Below are positions 868 to 28,543 of a DNA stretch of 29,003 nucleotides, in pieces. The number at the start of each line of letters is the position of its first letter. Within the stretch, counting starts at the first letter, position 1. Source of the stretch: a virus; the IMG/VR virus record IMGVR_UViG_3300017739_000073, positions 1 through 29,003 of that record, one strand, 5' to 3'. Below the pieces are notes generated by a model that saw only the letters and a list, made by a program, of their open reading frames with translations, was not told the origin of the DNA and ran no database searches. A program made the position numbers and the translations under genes.

Positions 868-1332
868 ATGAATGCAGTGATCAAATTTCCCCAAAATGTT
901 GGGTGTTTTAAACTATCTGAAAAGGCAAAACTTCCATACCAAGCAACAGCAGGAGCGGCTTGTTATGATCTTTATGCTTGCGTCGATAAACCCTTAAAAT
1001 TGAATCCAAAAGAGCGGGTACTTGTTCCCACGGGACTAATTATGGATATCCCCGAGGGTTATTCCGTTCGCATCCACACACGTTCGTCATGGGCTGCGAT
1101 AAAAGGTATTGGGTTGTCTGTCTCTGAGGGCATTATTGACTCTGATTACGTTAAAGAGGTTTTTGTGCCGATGGTTAATAATACCGATAAAATTTTTCAT
1201 ATCAACGACGGTGATAGAGTGGCACAGTGTGAACTCTTGAAAAATCTCTCAACTGACTTTACCGAGGTCAATGAAGCCCCACAGGAAAAAACTAGTCGCA
1301 AAGGTGGGTTTGGAAGCACGGGTATTGGATGA
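868..1332 (+). CDS. dut: dUTP diphosphatase (trimeric dUTPase)
   Basis: This enzyme hydrolyses dUTP to dUMP and PPi, keeping uracil out of DNA and supplying dUMP for thymidylate synthesis (ThyX is encoded at 12348). All five motifs of the trimeric family are present in order in 154 aa: AGAACYDLYA, HTRSSWA, GIIDSDYVKEVFVPM, GDRVAQC and the C-terminal RKGGFGSTG that closes over the active site. The length is normal. TAAGGAT lies 10-16 nt upstream of the ATG. Its stop overlaps the start of the glycosyltransferase by 4 nt, so it heads the long plus-strand operon. Confidence 0.95.
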   Translation: MNAVIKFPQNVGCFKLSEKAKLPYQATAGAACYDLYACVDKPLKLNPKERVLVPTGLIMDIPEGYSVRIHTRSSWAAIKGIGLSVSEGIIDSDYVKEVFVPMVNNTDKIFHINDGDRVAQCELLKNLSTDFTEVNEAPQEKTSRKGGFGSTGIG

Positions 1333-2132
1333 AAAAAATCGTAGGTAGGTTGAAAAGAGGTGTTTATCCAGATCATTTTGGATTGGCAAACCAAATGTTT
1401 CAAATTTCTATGGCGTATGCGTATGCCAAGAGAAACAATTTGAAGCCAGTTTTTCCTGAACTAAGACAAACCAATGTTTGCGGTCCTTACCTTGAAACTG
1501 TTTTTAGAAATCTTGATACCTCTGGAATGATTGCCGATTTTGAAGGAAGGCATGTCAAACAAAACGAGACTGACTTTCAGTTGATGGACATCCCCGATGG
1601 TCTAGAGCAGTTTATGTTTGATGGATATTGGCAGTCTGAGCATTATTTTAAAGATTGTGCTAGTGAAATCAAAGAATTATTTTGTGCTGATCCACAAACT
1701 GAAAAAAGAATCAAAGAAAAATATGGAGAAGAGTTATCTAAACCCTGTTGCTCTATTCACATGCGGCGAGGGGACTATCTCAACTACAAGGATGTTTTTG
1801 TCAATTTAGTGGAAACTAATTACTACCAAGACGCAGTAAATGAGTCCAACGCTGAAACATTTTTTGTGATGAGTAATGACGTTGACTTTGCCACTGAGTG
1901 GTTCGCGTCGAACTTCCCAGAAAAAAATATGATTTTTCCAAACGATGATGAGGTATTTGAAATGTATCTCATGTCAATGTGCGATGAGGTTATCATGGCA
2001 AACAGTTCTTTTTCATGGTGGGGATCATATCTTGGCAAAGAGAAAAAAACATTTGCACCAAAAGAGTGGTTCATGCCAAACTCTATCGTAAACTATGAAA
2101 GCATTTATCGAGATGATTGGAGGGTTCTGTGA
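1329..2132 (+). CDS. Alpha-1,2-fucosyltransferase-like glycosyltransferase (GT11)
   Basis: The family transfers L-fucose, or in relatives L-colitose, from a GDP-sugar to a glycan. The protein is 267 aa with the GT11 signatures: an N-terminal 'LANQMFQISMAYAYAKRN' segment, the donor-binding H-x-R-R-G-D-Y (HMRRGDY, about residue 143) and the C-terminal 'ANSSFSWWGSYL'. It has no signal peptide or membrane segment, so it is probably cytosolic. It overlaps the dUTPase by 4 nt, and its stop overlaps the GTG start of the next gene. It is followed by two GDP-deoxysugar enzymes, so the three probably form one cassette acting on a phage or host glycan. The acceptor is unknown. Confidence 0.85.
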   Translation: MKKIVGRLKRGVYPDHFGLANQMFQISMAYAYAKRNNLKPVFPELRQTNVCGPYLETVFRNLDTSGMIADFEGRHVKQNETDFQLMDIPDGLEQFMFDGYWQSEHYFKDCASEIKELFCADPQTEKRIKEKYGEELSKPCCSIHMRRGDYLNYKDVFVNLVETNYYQDAVNESNAETFFVMSNDVDFATEWFASNFPEKNMIFPNDDEVFEMYLMSMCDEVIMANSSFSWWGSYLGKEKKTFAPKEWFMPNSIVNYESIYRDDWRVL

Positions 2133-3046
2133 GTATTCCAGAAGAAAGTATTTTTATCACCGGCGGTAATGGTTTGGTTGGTTCTTGTGTTAAAGGGAAG
2201 CACAGACCCAGATCATTAGAAGTTAACTTACTAAACTTTGATCAAACTCTTGAATACATGAGGGACAATAAGATTAAAAATGTTGTTCATTGTGCAGCAA
2301 GAGTTGGTGGTGTCCAAGAAAACATGGACAAGTTGGGTGAGTTTTTCTATGAAAACATGCAGATGACTCTAAACATTATCGAGGCATCTCGTCTGTGTGG
2401 TGTCGAGAAAATTGTTTGCCTTTTGTCAACTTGTATCTTCCCAGACAAGGCAACGTATCCACTGACAACAGATCAAATCCATATGGGTGAACCACATCAG
2501 TCAAACTATGGTTATGGCTACGCAAAACGTATGACAGAAATCAACGCAAGATCCTATCGAGATCAGTACGGGATGAAAATTGTAAACATTGTTCCGTGTA
2601 ATGTGTATGGAATCGGTGACAACTATAATCTTAAAAGTTCACATGTCATTCCCGGTCTGATTCACAAATGTCATATTGCAAAACAATATGAAGGGGATCT
2701 TGAAGTTTGGGGTGATGGACTCGCTCTGCGTGAGTTTATCTACAATAAAGACTTGGGTAAAATTATTGATTGGACTTTGGAAAACTACGAAGATGATGAG
2801 GCACTAATTGTTTCACCAGATAAGGAACACTCAATCGTGGAAGCAGTTAATTATATTACAAAAGCGTTTGACTTAAACGGAAGTATCGTGTACGATTCTA
2901 CTAAGCCGAGAGGTCAGCACAGAAAGCCATCAGACAACTCTAAGTTCAAAAGTCTTTTGCCAAATTTTCAGTTTACACAACTTGAGGATGGCATCAAAGA
3001 AACAGTTGACTGGTTTAGAAAAAATTATGGAGATGTCAGAAAATGA
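2129..3046 (+). CDS. GDP-L-fucose synthase / ColC-like epimerase-reductase
   Basis: This is a short-chain dehydrogenase of the GDP-4-keto-6-deoxymannose 3,5-epimerase-4-reductase family (Fcl/WcaG; the colitose enzyme ColC is a close relative). A Rossmann motif GGNGLVGS lies near residue 12 and CAARVGG near residue 55. Y129-x-x-x-K133 is the catalytic pair. C102 (in STCIFP) and H172 (in SSHVIP) match the Cys/His epimerisation pair of E. coli GDP-fucose synthase. I place the start at GTG 2129, which overlaps the previous TGA (GTGA) and follows GGAGG 2119-2123 with a 5-nt spacer; a TTG at 2117 would be 4 codons longer but would include the SD. Usual family length is about 310-320 aa; this is 305. 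Confidence 0.88.
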   Translation: MSIPEESIFITGGNGLVGSCVKGKHRPRSLEVNLLNFDQTLEYMRDNKIKNVVHCAARVGGVQENMDKLGEFFYENMQMTLNIIEASRLCGVEKIVCLLSTCIFPDKATYPLTTDQIHMGEPHQSNYGYGYAKRMTEINARSYRDQYGMKIVNIVPCNVYGIGDNYNLKSSHVIPGLIHKCHIAKQYEGDLEVWGDGLALREFIYNKDLGKIIDWTLENYEDDEALIVSPDKEHSIVEAVNYITKAFDLNGSIVYDSTKPRGQHRKPSDNSKFKSLLPNFQFTQLEDGIKETVDWFRKNYGDVRK

Positions 3047-4224
3047 AGTCTTGGAAACTAATGAACAATGCGATTACTCCTGCCCAACGACAACGTTTGT
3101 CGGACTTTGTTTTGTTGGCAGATCGCTTTTCTCAAGGTGACGAAGTTCGTAGATTCGAAGAGCAGTGGAGTGAGTGGCAAGGTTGTAAGTATTCCGTATT
3201 TTGTAATTCTGGTTCGTCCGCAAACTTTCTGATCGTACAGGCAATGAAAGAGTTACATAGCAATACGAATCATCTTTGGCTCGCACCTGCGACAACTTGG
3301 GCAACCACGGTATCTCCCATCATGATGGCAGGGCAGGAACTTCAATTGTGTGATGTGACGATTCCGAATATGAATCTGTGTCTTGATAGTTTCAAGGAGA
3401 TTTTGTTACAACACAAAAGATCTTTTGGAGCAAGACCTAAGTTTCTTTTTCTTGCACACCTTCTTGGCTTCAACTCTATGAGTGACCAACTTATTCATCT
3501 GTGTGATGAAAACAATATTACTATTCTTGAGGATTGCTGTGAATCGCATGGTGCGACTTTCAGCGGCAAAAAGATTGGCAACTTCGGACGGGCTTCATCA
3601 TTCTCCTTTTATTATGGTCATCACATGACCACGATTGAGGGTGGTATGGTTTGCACAGATGACGAAGAGGTATATGAAAAACTTCTTTTGATTCGCTCAC
3701 ATGGCTTGCTGAGAGAGTTGCCACCATACTTGCAGACAAAGTATAAAGATCAAAAGGTTGATGAAAACTTTACCTTCATGGTTCCGGGTTACAACATGAG
3801 ATCAACTGATTTTAATGCTGTGCTTGGTCAAATGCAGTTGAGACAACTGGATAAACATAACGACATTCGCAGAAAGAACTTTGAAGTGTTTGCAAAAGGT
3901 CTGAGCAAAGATAAATTTTACGCAGACTTTAAACTTGAAGGTAACAGTAGTTTCTGCTTTCCCGTAATCACAAAGACAACGCGAGAAGACACACTCTCAC
4001 TTAGAAAATATCTTGAGTCTCAGGGTGTCGAAACGCGACCAATCATCGCAGGTAATCTGTACGAACATCCATTCATGGATCGTGTGAATCAGTATCGACA
4101 TGATAAAAATGCAAAACTGATTCATCAAAATGGATTTTACATCGGCAATAATCATGCAGTTGATATTGGAAATGTAACTTGGCTTATCGAAAGACTAAAC
4201 GCATGGGAACGGGGTGAAAAGTGA
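3043..4224 (+). CDS. PLP-dependent sugar 3-dehydrase, ColD/E1-like (His in place of the PLP lysine)
   Basis: A 393-aa DegT/DnrJ/EryC1-fold protein. The lysine that normally carries PLP is replaced by histidine: the segment reads S-F-Y-Y-G-H193-H194-M-T-T-I-E-G-G. This His-His is diagnostic of the 3-dehydrases ColD (GDP-4-keto-6-deoxymannose 3-dehydrase) and E1/RfbH, which remove the C3 hydroxyl instead of transaminating. Length fits ColD, and I see no C-terminal Cys cluster like the iron-sulphur site of E1. PLP-pocket landmarks SGSSAN, EDCCESHGA and VPGYNMRSTDFNAVLG are present. It overlaps the previous gene by 4 nt and the next by 4 nt. Next to a GDP-fucose-synthase-like gene it suggests a 3,6-dideoxyhexose (colitose-type) pathway. 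Confidence 0.85.
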   Translation: MKSWKLMNNAITPAQRQRLSDFVLLADRFSQGDEVRRFEEQWSEWQGCKYSVFCNSGSSANFLIVQAMKELHSNTNHLWLAPATTWATTVSPIMMAGQELQLCDVTIPNMNLCLDSFKEILLQHKRSFGARPKFLFLAHLLGFNSMSDQLIHLCDENNITILEDCCESHGATFSGKKIGNFGRASSFSFYYGHHMTTIEGGMVCTDDEEVYEKLLLIRSHGLLRELPPYLQTKYKDQKVDENFTFMVPGYNMRSTDFNAVLGQMQLRQLDKHNDIRRKNFEVFAKGLSKDKFYADFKLEGNSSFCFPVITKTTREDTLSLRKYLESQGVETRPIIAGNLYEHPFMDRVNQYRHDKNAKLIHQNGFYIGNNHAVDIGNVTWLIERLNAWERGEK

Positions 4225-4523
4225 AATTGAACCTCTACTATGTCTGCGACAGTCAGGGATATCTCAAAGAGAAAGTTAATGCCCATACGCTGATAAACGA
4301 AATACAACCAGATGGAAAAATGGTGTGGACTTTGAAGTACGTTTATGGATACAACAACCATCGCACAGAAAAAAGCAGTGAAATGTTCTGTCATGAGGAT
4401 TGTTGGGTAGATCCTGATGCAAAATTCTCAGACAAGATCCGTGAAGGACGAGAAGAAGAGTTTGAATTCTTTTTAGAAAATGGTTATCATATGCCGCGAA
4501 ATACAGGAAGGGACGCAAGATAA
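4221..4523 (+). CDS. Hypothetical protein, 100 aa
   Basis: GTG start at 4221 overlaps the previous TGA (GTGA). The product has an N-terminal strand-rich part (KLNLYYVCDSQGYLKEKVN), the segment MFCHEDCWVDPDAKFSDKI and a charged C-terminus (EGREEEFEFFLENGYHMP). Two Cys in a CHEDC arrangement could bind metal, but no second pair is visible. It sits between the sugar cassette and DUF1599 and overlaps the latter by one base. I do not recognise a family. Confidence 0.6.
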   Translation: MKLNLYYVCDSQGYLKEKVNAHTLINEIQPDGKMVWTLKYVYGYNNHRTEKSSEMFCHEDCWVDPDAKFSDKIREGREEEFEFFLENGYHMPRNTGRDAR

Positions 4524-4843
4524 TGACTCGGGATGAATTACTAAAAAATCATGAAACTATTTGTCAAGAAGCCCGTAATCTTATGGAATTGAAAAACAAA
4601 GATTATGCAGGCAATGGTGGCACTGAGCCTTTCGCAAATTTTACGCGATGTGAGGCGATGGGTGTTTGCACCACAGAGCAAGGATTCCTTGTTCGCATTG
4701 TTGATAAAATGTCAAGAATGAGTTCTTTTATTGAATCTGGAACCATGCACGTTGAAAATGAATCTTTTCATGACTCCTGTGTTGATATTATTAATTACAT
4801 GGTGCTACTTTCATCTTATGTCGGGGACAAAGAATCTGATTGA
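4523..4843 (+). CDS. DUF1599 / nucleotide-modification-associated domain protein
   Basis: The 106 aa carry the pattern of this family: LKNKDYAGNGG-x-PFANF, then VRIVDKMSRMSSFIE, then ESFHDSCVDIINYMVLL. The family occurs widely in phages and was named after its association with phage base-modification and nucleotide-pool genes; a direct biochemical role is not established. The DK..R and HD..D residues resemble all-alpha NTP pyrophosphatase-like metal sites (inference). Here it sits directly before the DNA polymerase, among dUTPase, ThyX and ribonucleotide reductase, consistent with a nucleotide role. The ATG overlaps the preceding TAA by one base. Confidence 0.75.
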   Translation: MTRDELLKNHETICQEARNLMELKNKDYAGNGGTEPFANFTRCEAMGVCTTEQGFLVRIVDKMSRMSSFIESGTMHVENESFHDSCVDIINYMVLLSSYVGDKESD

Positions 4844-15251: not shown

Positions 15252-16022
15252 ATGTTTCCGGCAAGCGTACTGTGTCTCACTGCCCTTACCGCAGCAGGAG
15301 ATATTGAATTTAGCGGTGTAGGTCAAACTGCCGTGACCTCAATCGACGGCGTTGAGACTCTTGATACTCGTTTGGTGCTTGGTGCATACGGCGAGTCTGA
15401 GGGAGCCGTTTATGGTTTTGCTTTTGAAACCAATGACGATCTTGACGAAGTTGAATTGTATGATGCTCATGTTGGAGCAGACTTCGGCATGTTTGATGTC
15501 ACCGTTGGATACTTCAAGCGTCATTTCTCTCACGAAATGACAACCACCAAGGGAGGTTACGGTCTTGGATTGACTCGATCTTCCACAAGCGGACTTATTG
15601 AAAGCCGTGCTGGTGGGGCATCGATTGGTTTTGATGTCGGTGAAGTTTCCTTTGATTTTGACATCGTTGGCGATGATGTTTTTGATGGCGACACCGTGAC
15701 CTACGGTGGTCGTGTGGAACTTGGAGCCTTGGGCTTCGGGTTTGTCGGTGAAGAAATGGATCTGTGGACTGTGGACATCTCTGATGGATACAACTACCTT
15801 TCCTACACTGACAACAACGGCGATTGGACTGCCGTTGGTCAAAGCGTTTTGTTTACCGTTGAAGATACCTTCTCCGGTTATGGTCGTGTCGAGTACGATC
15901 ACCTTGATGAAACCACATTTGCCGTAGGTGCAGTATGTGAGTTCCAAGAAGGTGTCTCTGCTCTGGTTGAGTATGATGATCGGGACGAAGGTATTCGTGC
16001 CGGTTTGCGATTCTCGTTTTGA
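15252..16022 (+). CDS. Outer-membrane beta-barrel (porin-like) protein
   Basis: A 256-aa protein with a short hydrophobic N-terminus (MFPASVLCLTALTAAG, likely signal peptide). Alternating polar/apolar strands follow almost to the end, for example GAVYGFAFETND, MFDVTVGYFKRHF, EVSFDFDIVGDD, SGYGRVEYDHL and SALVEYDDRD. It ends in AGLRFSF with a terminal Phe, the signal recognised by the BAM machinery. Acidic loops and one internal Cys are present. I read it as a small porin-like barrel placed in the host outer membrane (inference from pattern). GGAG just upstream overlaps the previous stop. A strong terminator follows 24 nt downstream. Possible roles are receptor masking, superinfection exclusion or altered permeability. 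It could instead be a virion protein. Confidence 0.65.
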   Translation: MFPASVLCLTALTAAGDIEFSGVGQTAVTSIDGVETLDTRLVLGAYGESEGAVYGFAFETNDDLDEVELYDAHVGADFGMFDVTVGYFKRHFSHEMTTTKGGYGLGLTRSSTSGLIESRAGGASIGFDVGEVSFDFDIVGDDVFDGDTVTYGGRVELGALGFGFVGEEMDLWTVDISDGYNYLSYTDNNGDWTAVGQSVLFTVEDTFSGYGRVEYDHLDETTFAVGAVCEFQEGVSALVEYDDRDEGIRAGLRFSF

Positions 16023-16161: not shown

Positions 16162-17109
16162 ATGAGTGATATTACTATTTGGATGTGGACTGGCTTTCTT
16201 CTCGCTGCTTACAGCGTCATCGCAAATGATTCGATTCAGACGCTTGGAACTTGGATTGCGAGCAATAGAAAAATAAACTGGAAGATCATGTGGGGATATG
16301 CCTCTGCGGTTCTTCTCTTTGCAGTTTGGTATGGATGGTGGGCATACGATGGTGACATCTCATACGGAAGACTCAACAAGATTCCGTTTGAGGGAGTAGA
16401 GTGGTATCAAGCACTCGCACCAGCAGTCCTATTGCTGCTCACTCGTTTTGGTATTCCTGTATCAACTTCATTCCTTGTGCTTTCTGCATTCGCATCAACT
16501 CTTGTTTTACAAAAAGTTTTGATGAAGTCTATGCTAGGATATGCCGTGGCTGGCGTTGCTGCCTATCTGATCTGGTTTGCCCTGACCCGTGTGATTGACG
16601 AGGGTAAGTCGATCAAGGACTCACACAAGAAGTGGTGGTCGATTGGACAGTGGATTACGACAGGCTTCCTGTGGTGGACTTGGTTGAGTCACGACATGGC
16701 AAACATCGCCGTGTTTATGCCGAGACAGATTCCCGTGGAGGTCATGGTGATCATCTCCACCGTCTTCGTCGCTGGTCTTGCGTGGATGCTACAAAAGCGT
16801 GGTGGCAAGATTCAGGAAATCGTCATACAAAAAAGAAATACAAAGTATGTTCGGTCGGCAACTCTGATTGACCTGTTCTACTTTATCGTTCTTTACATCT
16901 TCAAAGAAATGAACGACATTCCGATGTCAACGACTTGGGTGTTTGTCGGACTTCTCACTGGACGAGAACTTGCGGTTGCATCGTTCAGACAAAAGGACAG
17001 TGTGAAAAAAGTGTTCCCGATGGTCAGTCGAGACTTCCTGAAACTGATGGTTGGTCTTGCGGCATCTGTGGTGATTGTGCTTCTGGTTCAATACGCTAAG
17101 AGTTGCTAG
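16162..17109 (+). CDS. Putative Pho4/PiT-like phosphate (anion) transporter
   Basis: A 315-aa integral membrane protein with about eight hydrophobic segments. Two inverted-repeat-like signatures of the PiT family can be traced: N-terminal V-I-A-N-D-S-I-Q-T-L-G-T with IPVSTSFLVLSAFAS, and C-terminal S-H-D-M-A-N-I-A-V with IPMSTTWVFVGLLTG. In PiT proteins the N-D and P-x-S-T motifs line the phosphate and cation site. It is shorter than typical bacterial PiT (about 400-500 aa). AGGGAG precedes the ATG. It is a single-gene unit between a terminator and the next gene, so it is likely regulated apart from replication genes. Phosphate uptake would be a plausible auxiliary role in marine hosts. Another ion as substrate is possible. 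Confidence 0.55.
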   Translation: MSDITIWMWTGFLLAAYSVIANDSIQTLGTWIASNRKINWKIMWGYASAVLLFAVWYGWWAYDGDISYGRLNKIPFEGVEWYQALAPAVLLLLTRFGIPVSTSFLVLSAFASTLVLQKVLMKSMLGYAVAGVAAYLIWFALTRVIDEGKSIKDSHKKWWSIGQWITTGFLWWTWLSHDMANIAVFMPRQIPVEVMVIISTVFVAGLAWMLQKRGGKIQEIVIQKRNTKYVRSATLIDLFYFIVLYIFKEMNDIPMSTTWVFVGLLTGRELAVASFRQKDSVKKVFPMVSRDFLKLMVGLAASVVIVLLVQYAKSC

Positions 17110-20559: not shown

Positions 20560-20874
20560 TTACTTCCCCAATCTATTCATCACTGCCTTTTCAAAAGCAG
20601 CGACATTTTGACTTGTTACATCCCCTTCGACACCCATTTTGTCAAAGTGAGTTTTTACAATTTTATTCTTATCCTCAATAGTTCTAGCATTTGTCAGGAT
20701 ATCTTCAGCCGTCGCGTCAACGATATCTTGAGTAACTTCTTTTGGCATAGCATTGTGATTTCCACGGTTCATTACTTGATTTACCGCATCAATCGCATTT
20801 TTAAGACCATCTGATTCACCACCACTAAAAGGACCGGCAGAGTCAAATCCACTACTAACATTATCTGATTCCAT
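20560..20874 (-). CDS. Hypothetical protein, 104 aa
   Basis: ATG 20874 follows GGAG with a 7-nt spacer and overlaps the stop of the fusion gene by one base. The N-terminus is Ser/Gly/Asp rich and probably disordered. A helical part follows (LKNAIDAVNQVMNRG, VTQDIVDATAEDILTNARTIEDKNKIVKTHFDKMG, AAFEKAVMNRLGK). No membrane segment, Cys or known motif is present. It is transcribed with the fusion gene and the 173-aa gene; role unknown. Confidence 0.6.
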   Translation of the reverse strand: MESDNVSSGFDSAGPFSGGESDGLKNAIDAVNQVMNRGNHNAMPKEVTQDIVDATAEDILTNARTIEDKNKIVKTHFDKMGVEGDVTSQNVAAFEKAVMNRLGK

Positions 20875-23135
20875 TATGAATCTCCTTTAAAGTATGTATC
20901 TGCAATTTCATTTACCTGTCCGGGTGTCATTCTTTTTCTTTTTCTTGTAAGAGCAGTCGTTCCCTCCAGATCATCATCTGAATATTCCTCTTCTCTTGCC
21001 TTTTTCTTAGCCATGTTTGTCGCAGTGCCGAAAATGACATCCTCATAATCATCTCCATATCGATTTTTAAAACCTTTTGCTCGTTTCTTCAAATCTTTAG
21101 CAAATTTGTCTCTAAGTTTTATTTCTTGTTTTGTCAAAACCTCTTCTTTAAGTTTTGTGGTCTTAATAAACTTCTTGCCCGGATCAACAACAATATGGAA
21201 TTCTTTCATGAAAGGGACACCAATCAAAACAGGAGTTCCCTTTTTGCTTCTATCATCTAAGGTGAATCTTCGTTTAACATACTTTTTATCAAGAAATTCT
21301 ATATCCAATTCAATCACATAGCGTTTTTCTTCATGTGCGCCGATGCCGCCCTCAAGAATAGTAAACTCATCGACAATTTTGTTCTTGAATTTTTTACCTT
21401 TGTGTGTCCATGAGATAGTTTTTCCATTTATTTTCATGGTATCCGCATGAATTGAGTTGACCGCCGTGTTACCAGTATCAAACTTTGCCTCGATGGGACC
21501 GATGCCCTCTACTGATATGACTTCTTTCCTACCAACAATTGTTGGGGGGTAATCCCAGTTATTTTTGTCGGTAATATATTTAACAAAAGTTTGCATCACG
21601 TTTCCAGATGAAACCTTTTCAATGCCCTCTGATCCCGGTGATGCGTTTACTTCAATAACATAAGGCTTTCTTCTACCTTTAGTAACAGCGATATCTACAC
21701 CGACAAAGTATCCACCCACCGCCTTTGCAGTTCTGAGGGCAAGTTTTTTGATCTCATCACTAATCTTTACTTGTTTGATAGATCCACCGAGAGAAAAGTT
21801 TGTTCTAAAATCGCCTTTGACTTTACTTCTCTCCATGACAGCGACAATTTGACCATCAAGAACAACGATGCGAAGATCCCCGTTAATATTAAGATACTCT
21901 TGGATAATCAACTCTTGTGAGTCATCAACTTTAAGAATAGCATCGAGTGTTGATTTTAGTGATTGTTCACTCTCAAGAATAAACACTCCCTTTCCCTTAG
22001 AGCCTGTGATTGTTTTTACAACCACTGGATAATTACCACCAACTTGCTTATGGGCATCCATTACATTTTCAGGGTCGGTAATCAACGCCGTTCTTGGTGT
22101 AGGAAGACCAGCCTCAACAAGTGTGAGTGCGGAGCGATACTTATCGTTGCAAATTTCGATTGAGTCCCTAGAGTTAATCACAAAGAATCCACTCTTTTCG
22201 AACGCCGAAACCATATCGAGAGTCGCGTTATTTTCTTGAGCAGCACCACGAACAATTACAACAGTGTCATGCCGATTTGCCACAAATTCTTTACCATCTT
22301 TATTGATAACTGTACGAGTCCCATCTGCATTTTTCACAGATCGGGCAAAGGGGACGAACGCGACGAAACACTCGACTCCGATTTTTTGTGCCTCTTCTTT
22401 GATTCGCTTCGCAGTTCTCATTAAGTTGTCTTTATTTTCTTCGCTATATCCAGAAAAAACTAGTAACTTAATTTTATCTCTAGAGACTTCTGCCTCCTCG
22501 GTGATAGTCCCACCGACAACGCCCATTCCTTTACGAACATCGTCAAAAAGTTTACGAGCCTGTCTATCTGATCCCGTGGTTGGGACACCTTGACGAAACG
22601 ACTTGAAGTCACCCTCGGCTGCTGCTGCTCTCATCTTTGATGCCGACATGCCAACAATACCCTCTGCATCAGGATCGCGTCTACCGGCACTAACGACCTC
22701 AAATGTGTTTAGATCTAAAGATTTATCTGGATCAGGATGATTGATATATGGTCTAACGGTTCTTTCAAACTCATCGGTTCTATCGCCGCCAACAACGACA
22801 GTAACATCCGTATATCCTTCATCAGCAAGATATCCCAAAGCCTCAAAAATCGTGCGAATCGAGGTGTTATACATAATATTAGCCTTCTTGAAAAAGGTTC
22901 GCATGTGCTTTGTTTTTGTTCTTGAATCTAGAGGATTCTTTTTCTTATCTTGGGAGTGGCTGGCAAAGATAAAATTGTCAGCGGATCTTTTTCTTGCTTC
23001 CTGTAAAACTTTGTTTACCAGTAGTTCATGACCAGATGTGGGTGGGTTGAAACGTCCAAACGTAAGAACCGCTTTCTTATTTCGACGCTCTTCCACGATG
23101 ACATTACGCCTCACTCCATTGTAGTGTGGTTTCAT
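20874..23135 (-). CDS. Three-domain fusion: nucleotidyltransferase + RimK-like ATP-grasp ligase + RimB-like aspartic protease
   Basis: Residues 21-200 form a cytidylyltransferase-type (HIGH-superfamily) domain: TFGRFNPPTSGH (25-36), VVVGGDRTDEF and GMSASKMR (162-169). Residues about 222-530 form an ATP-grasp ligase like RimK: VIVRGAAQENN, CNDKY, VVVKTITGSKGKGV with K374, QEYLNINGDLRIVV and VIEVNASPGSEG (493-503). Residues about 535-660 resemble the retropepsin-like 'ATP-dependent zinc protease'/RimB family (PF05618): EAKFDTGNTAVNS with D553-T-G, and VLIGVPFM (636-643). The C-terminus (665-753) is charged. RimK adds glutamates to ribosomal protein S6, and RimB modulates this in Pseudomonas. 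The N-terminus (I-V-E15) resembles a capsid-targeting sequence. Its SD is exceptionally complete, and a 25-nt inverted repeat flanks its start. Confidence 0.85.
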   Translation of the reverse strand: MKPHYNGVRRNVIVEERRNKKAVLTFGRFNPPTSGHELLVNKVLQEARKRSADNFIFASHSQDKKKNPLDSRTKTKHMRTFFKKANIMYNTSIRTIFEALGYLADEGYTDVTVVVGGDRTDEFERTVRPYINHPDPDKSLDLNTFEVVSAGRRDPDAEGIVGMSASKMRAAAAEGDFKSFRQGVPTTGSDRQARKLFDDVRKGMGVVGGTITEEAEVSRDKIKLLVFSGYSEENKDNLMRTAKRIKEEAQKIGVECFVAFVPFARSVKNADGTRTVINKDGKEFVANRHDTVVIVRGAAQENNATLDMVSAFEKSGFFVINSRDSIEICNDKYRSALTLVEAGLPTPRTALITDPENVMDAHKQVGGNYPVVVKTITGSKGKGVFILESEQSLKSTLDAILKVDDSQELIIQEYLNINGDLRIVVLDGQIVAVMERSKVKGDFRTNFSLGGSIKQVKISDEIKKLALRTAKAVGGYFVGVDIAVTKGRRKPYVIEVNASPGSEGIEKVSSGNVMQTFVKYITDKNNWDYPPTIVGRKEVISVEGIGPIEAKFDTGNTAVNSIHADTMKINGKTISWTHKGKKFKNKIVDEFTILEGGIGAHEEKRYVIELDIEFLDKKYVKRRFTLDDRSKKGTPVLIGVPFMKEFHIVVDPGKKFIKTTKLKEEVLTKQEIKLRDKFAKDLKKRAKGFKNRYGDDYEDVIFGTATNMAKKKAREEEYSDDDLEGTTALTRKRKRMTPGQVNEIADTYFKGDS
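23021..23045. repeat. Inverted repeat, arm 1 (inside the fusion gene)
   Basis: The 25 bases are the exact reverse complement of 23176-23200. This arm codes for residues about 31-38 of the fusion protein (around PTSGHELL). The 130-nt interval between the arms holds the start codon and SD. Confidence 0.95.
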
Positions 23136-27779: not shown

Positions 27780-27786
27780 TATTTAG
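27780..27786 (-). promoter_or_regulatory. CTAAATA late-promoter-like box (minus strand)
   Basis: Read 27786 to 27780 it is CTAAATA, overlapping the stop codon of the PEP-CTERM-like gene. It lies only 5 nt before the ATG at 27774, so a transcript from it would be almost leaderless; this copy is less certain than the other three. Confidence 0.4.
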
Positions 27787-28424
27787 GCTCTACGTCTTCT
27801 CCCGCCCATCAGCACACCCATGCCCCCGATTGCCAACGCACCCGGAGCAGGGATAATAATAGAATCAAAGTCTGGCACAAAGGATTCAAAAACTGCCACG
27901 CCACCATCCCCTTGAAGAACTGCTGGGGAGGTAGTGTAATCCTCTGCCCATGCCACGATCCAAACGGTTGCCGACTCGCCGGGGGCTAAAGAATCTGTGG
28001 TCGTATCGTCTGAGAAGCCCCAGTCCCATGAGAACAGACCTGTCTCGTATGCAAAATCCACATAGTCCGGGGCGTTGTAAAAAGGATCAAAAATTCTATC
28101 TTTGTCTGGATTGTCAAAAAAGTATCCGGGCATCACAAGAGCGGCGATCTCGGATGTGCTTTCTCCAACATAAATGTCGAGGTCTTCGATTGCTAGCATT
28201 GACTCCGCATCGTTCTCAACGCTGATTGTCACTAGCATTGCACCCTCGGGAAGACCTACAATATCTTGTTGCTCGGGTTCGGTATAGACTGCTGAAGAAA
28301 CTGTTGCCGCATAGAATCCCTCTTCGCTCTGTGACCAAACTTCATATGACATATAATCCGTTGGGTCACCAATGATATCCCCAAACGCAGCCGTTGTTAT
28401 AAGAAACGCTAATGGTTTATGCAT
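27783..28424 (-). CDS. Secreted protein with PEP-CTERM-like sorting tail
   Basis: I place the start at ATG 28424, after AGGGG with a 7-nt spacer; upstream in-frame codons run through a terminator. The 213 aa have a signal peptide (MHKPLAFLITTAAFG), an acidic, aromatic-rich secreted domain (DIYVGESTSEIAAL, GLFSWDWGFSDD, ATVWIVAWAED) and a C-terminal tripartite tail: I-P-A-P-G, a hydrophobic span (ALAIGGMGVLMGG) and R-R-R-R-A. This is the PEP-CTERM layout read by exosortase in Gram-negative bacteria; P-A-P-G variants are common in planctomycetes. The gene looks host-derived and would act at the host envelope. It has its own promoter region and lies between a terminator and the cargo operon. Confidence 0.75.
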   Translation of the reverse strand: MHKPLAFLITTAAFGDIIGDPTDYMSYEVWSQSEEGFYAATVSSAVYTEPEQQDIVGLPEGAMLVTISVENDAESMLAIEDLDIYVGESTSEIAALVMPGYFFDNPDKDRIFDPFYNAPDYVDFAYETGLFSWDWGFSDDTTTDSLAPGESATVWIVAWAEDYTTSPAVLQGDGGVAVFESFVPDFDSIIIPAPGALAIGGMGVLMGGRRRRA

Positions 28425-28444
28425 ACTATATCCCCTGATAATTG

Positions 28445-28473
28445 TGTTATAGTTTTTGTCTTTACCTAAAGAC
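28445..28473 (-). promoter_or_regulatory. Operator-like dyad next to a possible -10 element
   Basis: 28458-28473 is GTCTTTA-CC-TAAAGAC, a 7+2+7 perfect inverted repeat. Directly downstream on the minus strand is AAACTATAACA (28455-28445), an 11-mer also found at 16091-16101 before the transporter gene. TATAAC could be a -10 box. It lies between the Hsp20 terminator and the PEP-CTERM-like gene. Confidence 0.4.
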
Positions 28474-28483
28474 ATAGTATGTA

Positions 28484-28520
28484 TAAAAAAGACAACGGGA
28501 GCCTTTCGACCCCCGCTGCC
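28484..28520 (-). terminator. Rho-independent terminator after hsp20
   Basis: On the minus strand GGCAGCGGGGG pairs with CTCCCGTTGTC (11 pairs including G-T) around an 8-nt loop, followed by TTTTTT (28490-28485). It ends the Hsp20 transcript 24 nt after the stop. Confidence 0.85.
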
Positions 28521-28543
28521 GTCCAAAACAGAGAATATTTTTT

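Follow-up and report, generated by a model that had tools for sequence, protein, structure and literature searches.

Colitose is a rare sugar known from the O-antigens of a few Gram-negative bacteria, including gut bacteria. In Escherichia coli O55 (locus L144 of this comparison) colC is followed by colD with an overlap of 4 nt, and the same cluster also carries gmd, the gene of GDP-mannose 4,6-dehydratase, and encodes the GT11 transferase WbgN. Here, we describe a block of three genes with matching enzyme classes in the virus record IMGVR_UViG_3300017739_000073 (a single fragment of 29,003 bases, analysed over its whole length and called the window in the following). These genes encode a glycosyltransferase of family GT11 (positions 1329-2132), an epimerase/reductase of the GDP-L-fucose synthase (GFS) family (2129-3046) and a predicted 3-dehydrase of the ColD type (3043-4224), the latter two being arranged as colC and colD are in E. 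coli O55, whereas the stretch is devoid of gmd. All three are intact, lie on the plus strand and are joined by start/stop overlaps of 4 nt. The initial annotation was correct in placing a reductase/epimerase and a GT11 transferase directly before the dehydrase, and the family matches of the three proteins given below are too strong to have arisen by chance. We consider it likely that they form a colitose-type cassette of a marine-type T4-like phage, with gmd being provided by the host or from elsewhere in the phage genome.

In ColD the cofactor pyridoxamine 5'-phosphate (PMP) forms a Schiff base with the 4-keto sugar, a histidine accepts the proton of the cofactor and the C3 hydroxyl leaves; subsequently hydrolysis frees the 4-keto dideoxy sugar together with ammonia, and glutamate restores PMP (PMC8987622). 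The dehydrases E1 and SpnQ are set apart from ColD by their [2Fe-2S] cysteines (PMC8987622). The DegT-fold protein of the window (Pfam DegT, 201 bits) had been noticed for His193-His194 at the position of the lysine that binds pyridoxal 5'-phosphate (PLP), and this is confirmed by the codons at 3619-3624 (plus strand) as well as by alignments to ColD. H193 aligns with the catalytic H188 of E. coli ColD, i.e. the residue altered in the PDB entries 3b8x (H188N) and 2r0t, where aminotransferases have a lysine. Among PDB sequences the best match is ColD (2gms, 208 bits, E 1.5e-60), followed by E1 with 107 bits and all others with at most 99 bits. The AlphaFold model (pLDDT 93) also matches the ColD fold best (3b8x, Z 49.8, rmsd 2.2 over 378 residues), the next being E1 (Z 46.2) and then lysine-containing aminotransferases (Z 45.6 and below). 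In all 128 full-length homologues that were aligned the histidine at the ColD-188 position is invariant, as are the equivalents of the PLP-pocket residues D159, S183 and N248 of ColD, while the 20 perosamine-synthase-like neighbours have lysine at this position without exception. As a single peptide containing the HH motif served as seed for gathering these homologues, the set is biased towards HH proteins; relatives gathered via the reductase instead carry HH as well. The cysteine motif CxC...C...C of E1 that binds the [2Fe-2S] cluster is absent from both the window protein and ColD in the alignment.

In the phylogenetic reconstruction ColD and the phage dehydrases share a clade with support of 96/96, within which they form separate branches, and a clade of 40 exclusively viral rows has support of 98. 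Grouping of the phage proteins with E1 is rejected by the AU test (p-AU 0.014); a grouping of ColD with E1 is not (p 0.19). Since dN/dS ranges between 0.02 and 0.09 (unsaturated comparisons among close relatives), which reflects strong purifying selection, the gene is maintained. Taken together, it is well supported by sequence comparison and the structural model that this open reading frame (ORF) encodes a 3-dehydrase of the ColD and not of the E1 type. The initial annotation had left the choice between ColD and E1 open and had made its claim depend on a phylogeny near either of them; PDB match, fold, cysteines and tree narrow it to ColD.

The reductase gene (GTG start; Pfam Epimerase, 155 bits) encodes all catalytic residues of the family, namely S100, C102, Y129, K133 and H172 as mapped on E. 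coli Fcl. Its best PDB match is human GDP-L-fucose synthase (4e5y, 254 bits) with E. coli GFS reaching 132 bits, and the scores against E. coli ColC (149 bits, 31% identity) and Fcl (145 bits) show no real difference. A ColC-like role is proposed for it from its family and its neighbourhood. E. coli ColC itself is placed among Fcl-like enzymes in the tree, where the GFS genes linked to a dehydrase are spread over three or more distinct lineages, represented by E. coli ColC, by cyanophages and by the window type. A glycine (Gly128) preceding the catalytic tyrosine is common to ColC and the phage copies, but it is found in human GFS too.

The transferase had been assigned to family GT11 from the beginning, and this assignment holds (PF01531, 68.8 bits; phrog_2644). 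Its sequence contains the HxRRGDY motif as HMRRGDY together with NSSFSWWG, with H144, R146, D149 and Y150 conserved. The same family includes WbgN from the colitose-making E. coli O55 cluster, with which the window protein shares 32% identity over about 150 amino acids of the catalytic half. All top fold matches of the AlphaFold model (pLDDT 85) are GDP-fucose fucosyltransferases, i.e. NodZ, FUT8 and POFUT1, with modest TM-scores of about 0.4-0.5. Its predicted donor is GDP-linked L-colitose or L-fucose, and we know of no feature in GT11 that separates the use of GDP-colitose from that of GDP-fucose.

The initial annotation had expected gmd to come from outside the window, and the missing gene is indeed encountered in related loci. 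In the sibling phage L006, whose polymerase, dehydrase and GT11 are 97%, 95% and 99% identical to those of the window, the order is GT11-GFS-ColD-gmd; here gmd follows directly after the dehydrase and replaces an ORF of 100 amino acids, while the next genes are the same. The arrangement GFS-ColD-gmd is found also in L008 and L014, and the isolated cyanophages ACG-2014f and S-CAM7 possess a contiguous gmd-GFS-ColD-GT11 set beside further glycosyltransferases and tail-fibre genes, with the cassette genes being annotated as "epimerases", "aminotransferase" and "glycosyltransferase". Among 56 dereplicated viral dehydrase loci a GFS gene lies directly upstream in 27, most often with a 4-nt overlap as in the window, and directly downstream in five; gmd is present in 25 and GT11 in 21 of these loci. 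In a set of 50 dehydrase-carrying virus records nine pass the cut-off for gmd and some 20 reach more than 350 bits, but none passes the cut-off for CDP-glucose 4,6-dehydratase (best score 101 of 278 bits). This co-occurrence, together with the lack of any CDP-glucose 4,6-dehydratase above the cut-off, indicates the GDP-mannose route.

Thus, the three-gene block probably makes and attaches colitose. GDP-mannose 4,6-dehydratase, encoded by the host or by phage DNA outside the window, would provide GDP-4-keto-6-deoxymannose, which we infer to be the substrate of the dehydrase. The latter would bind PMP without a lysine anchor, use H193 as acid/base catalyst and remove the C3 hydroxyl, with ammonia being released and PMP regenerated from glutamate as in ColD. 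The reductase would then perform epimerisation at C5 followed by NADPH-dependent reduction at C4, yielding GDP-L-colitose, from which GT11 would move the sugar onto a glycan, probably host lipopolysaccharide (LPS) or a virion glycan. Tail-fibre-related genes next to the block (at the 5' end of the window, and at 5950-7590 in L006) are suggestive as regards the acceptor. The pathway from the keto sugar via GDP-colitose to a glycan had already been proposed in the initial annotation; the dehydrase, the transferase and an external gmd are supported, whereas the reductase may be either a ColC or a fucose synthase.

Several observations weigh against colitose synthesis by this block. The dehydrase shares only 34% identity with E. 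coli ColD, no gmd was detected upon searching the 29-kb window, and the 74-kb record of the relative L004 contains no convincing gmd either. In the tree the reductase joins human-type GFS and its phage relatives and not E. coli ColC, and a search for residues that separate ColC from Fcl revealed nothing diagnostic. Among 89 GFS loci, gathered by alignment search and mostly seeded from the close phage relatives of the reductase, gmd is nearby in 72 but any 3-dehydrase-like gene in only 20 (directly downstream in nine), and therefore the window-type GFS lineage appears to make mostly fucose. What remains of the ColC-like assignment is the membership in the GFS family, the catalytic residues and the adjacency to a ColD gene, from which we infer colitose and not fucose as end product. 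A fucose cassette is probably widespread in phages, and its sequence relatives suggest that a ColD-type enzyme was added to it more than once; the window block is then probably a fucose cassette of the GFS-gmd-GT11 type that has gained a 3-dehydrase.

From the same relationships it could be argued that two sugars are made in parallel, with reductase and GT11 representing a fucose branch and the GDP-4-keto-3,6-dideoxymannose of the dehydrase being passed to another reductase or to an aminotransferase elsewhere in phage or host. The majority of the relatives of the window GFS are paired with gmd in fucose-type cassettes that lack a dehydrase, and in several phages a perosamine-synthase-like aminotransferase takes the place of GFS beside the dehydrase. 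Nevertheless, the GFS-family enzyme is the sole recognised sugar reductase among the window ORFs scanned, a second one not being found, and the colC-colD order and adjacency recur in 27 of the 56 dereplicated loci and in E. coli O55, so that we regard two separate products as rather unlikely. Far less probable still is a pure fucose cassette in which the DegT protein acts as a normal sugar aminotransferase or is a relative without activity: PHROGs and the cyanophage records do use the label "aminotransferase" and lysine aminotransferases have the same fold (Z up to 45.6), but every homologue has histidine for the PLP lysine, an invariance for which we disfavour this explanation, the perosamine-synthase-like neighbours keep lysine, the other PLP-pocket residues are invariant, the protein belongs to the ColD clade and the dN/dS values speak against a dead gene. 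An E1-type dehydrase on the CDP-glucose route to paratose, abequose, tyvelose or ascarylose, to which the HH of E1, its rank as next-best match and the annotation of the S-CAM7 copy as CDP-4-keto-6-deoxy-D-glucose-3-dehydrase would point, is the least probable of all and was rejected because of the absent Fe-S cysteines, the AU test and the lack of a CDP-glucose 4,6-dehydratase above cut-off in all 50 records, with no E3 reductase seen.

Returning to the colitose-type cassette, parts of it have been exchanged by recombination, since the synonymous divergence differs gene by gene: between the window and L006 it amounts to 0.13 for GT11, 0.46 for both GFS and polymerase and 1.05 for the dehydrase, the window dehydrase being much closer to that of L003 (0.19). 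The stretch from dUTPase to the conserved gene MTRDELL (868-4843 of the window compared with L003, L004 and L006) is a swap site. A broader scenario, which we offer as possible rather than probable, is that T4-like environmental phages are a large and long-standing home of their own ColD-type lineage, that they make GDP-L-colitose via a 3-dehydrase added to a fucose cassette, that this module is swapped between dUTPase and polymerase genes and displays a dideoxysugar on virions or infected hosts, and that phages with a perosamine-synthase-like neighbour make 3-deoxyperosamine instead.

With respect to these neighbours, a lysine-bearing perosamine-synthase-like aminotransferase gene lies directly upstream of the HH 3-dehydrase gene, often overlapping it, in L024 (1382-3624), L025 (8837-11125), L029 (8910-11134) and L031 (8886-11149), and the same pairing occurs in L038 (8871-11149), L041 (8893-11137), L079 and L080. 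The L038 aminotransferase matches GDP-perosamine synthase best (3bn1, E 7e-71), and judged from their sequences such pairs could make GDP-3-deoxyperosamine, a compound named in PDB entry 3dr7 and known as an in vitro product only. In some cyanophages, such as Synechococcus phage S-H68 (L141, 5926-7221), rml-like genes lie close to the gene of an E1-like 3-dehydrase that has a CYC stretch of the Fe-S type, and phages may therefore possess a second route to 3-deoxysugars. Some GFS-gmd loci of phages (L186, 7220-8323; L199, L201 and L205) contain yet another, third variant of the DegT protein, with SFYASHVITAGG at the PLP-lysine position and thus SH instead of HH or K.

The cassette lies between a dUTPase gene (868-1332, plus strand; PF00692, 77.6 bits), the stop of which shares 4 nt (ATGA) with the start of GT11, and the conserved phage gene MTRDELL (4523-4843, plus strand) upstream of the DNA polymerase gene, which is 99% identical in L006 and 92-100% identical in L002-L005 and L007. 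Between dehydrase and this downstream edge lies the 100-amino-acid ORF (4221-4523, plus strand) that occupies the slot of gmd in L006; it has neither a Pfam nor a PHROG match, shows 78-86% identity to counterparts in L003-L005 and L007 and has a 65% identical homologue at 8235-8507 of L031. The successive overlaps among these six genes (868-4843) measure 1 to 4 nt, and by their arrangement they are probably one translationally coupled unit. Elsewhere the window carries a T4-like phage gene set comprising family B DNA polymerase, UvsX, a DnaB-like helicase, primase and ThyX, as well as ribonucleotide reductase, a RuvC-like nuclease and Hsp20. A single protein of 753 amino acids (20874-23135, minus strand) unites three domains, one nucleotidyltransferase-like, one of the RimK ATP-grasp type and one labelled "putative ATP-dependent zinc protease". 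Two further proteins have no Pfam or PHROG match, namely a hydrophobic, transporter-like and perhaps phosphate-permease-like protein of 315 amino acids (16162-17109) and a protein of 256 amino acids (15252-16022) that resembles an outer-membrane beta-barrel (porin-like, with an aromatic C-terminus). The end of the protein encoded at 27783-28526 (minus strand), IIPAPGALAIGGMGVLMGGRRRRA, resembles a PEP-CTERM sorting tail, which is unusual for a phage and a possible hint to the host.

If phages make colitose, they could alter the very surface sugar that governs grazing and the adsorption of phages, or cover their own fibres with it, and a single additional enzyme would suffice to make a fucose cassette produce a rare sugar. 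As the cultured phages ACG-2014f and S-CAM7 carry the whole predicted pathway, the question is directly testable on isolates. Their islands encode the same cassette enzymes in T4-like phages like the window, but their dehydrase is only 37-41% identical, their reductase is from another GFS lineage and the gene order is rearranged. Cyanophage fucose and LPS genes have already been described (PMC9602691). The gmd-GFS fucose cassettes of S-SCSM1, P-SSM2 and S-SKS1 share the GDP-mannose precursor route and the GFS family with the window, but are without a 3-dehydrase and thus end at fucose. A limited literature search found nothing on phage-encoded synthesis of colitose or another 3,6-dideoxyhexose. 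Yersinia CDP-6-deoxy-4-hexulose 3-dehydrase (E1) has the aminotransferase fold and histidine for lysine in common with the window dehydrase, but it has the [2Fe-2S] cysteines that the latter lacks, depends on a reductase and acts on CDP-glucose sugars. GDP-perosamine synthase shares the fold and the GDP-4-keto-6-deoxymannose substrate family, but has a catalytic lysine and transaminates C4. E. coli ColD has the same catalytic histidine and is likewise without Fe-S cysteines; in contrast with E. coli O55 the window block is phage-borne, its dehydrase and reductase are 34% and 31% identical to their counterparts and its reductase is not the nearest kin of ColC. Hence, bacterial colitose and phage fucose genes were already known, while the phage ColD-type lineage, its recruited fucose-type reductase and the mobile cassette are new here.

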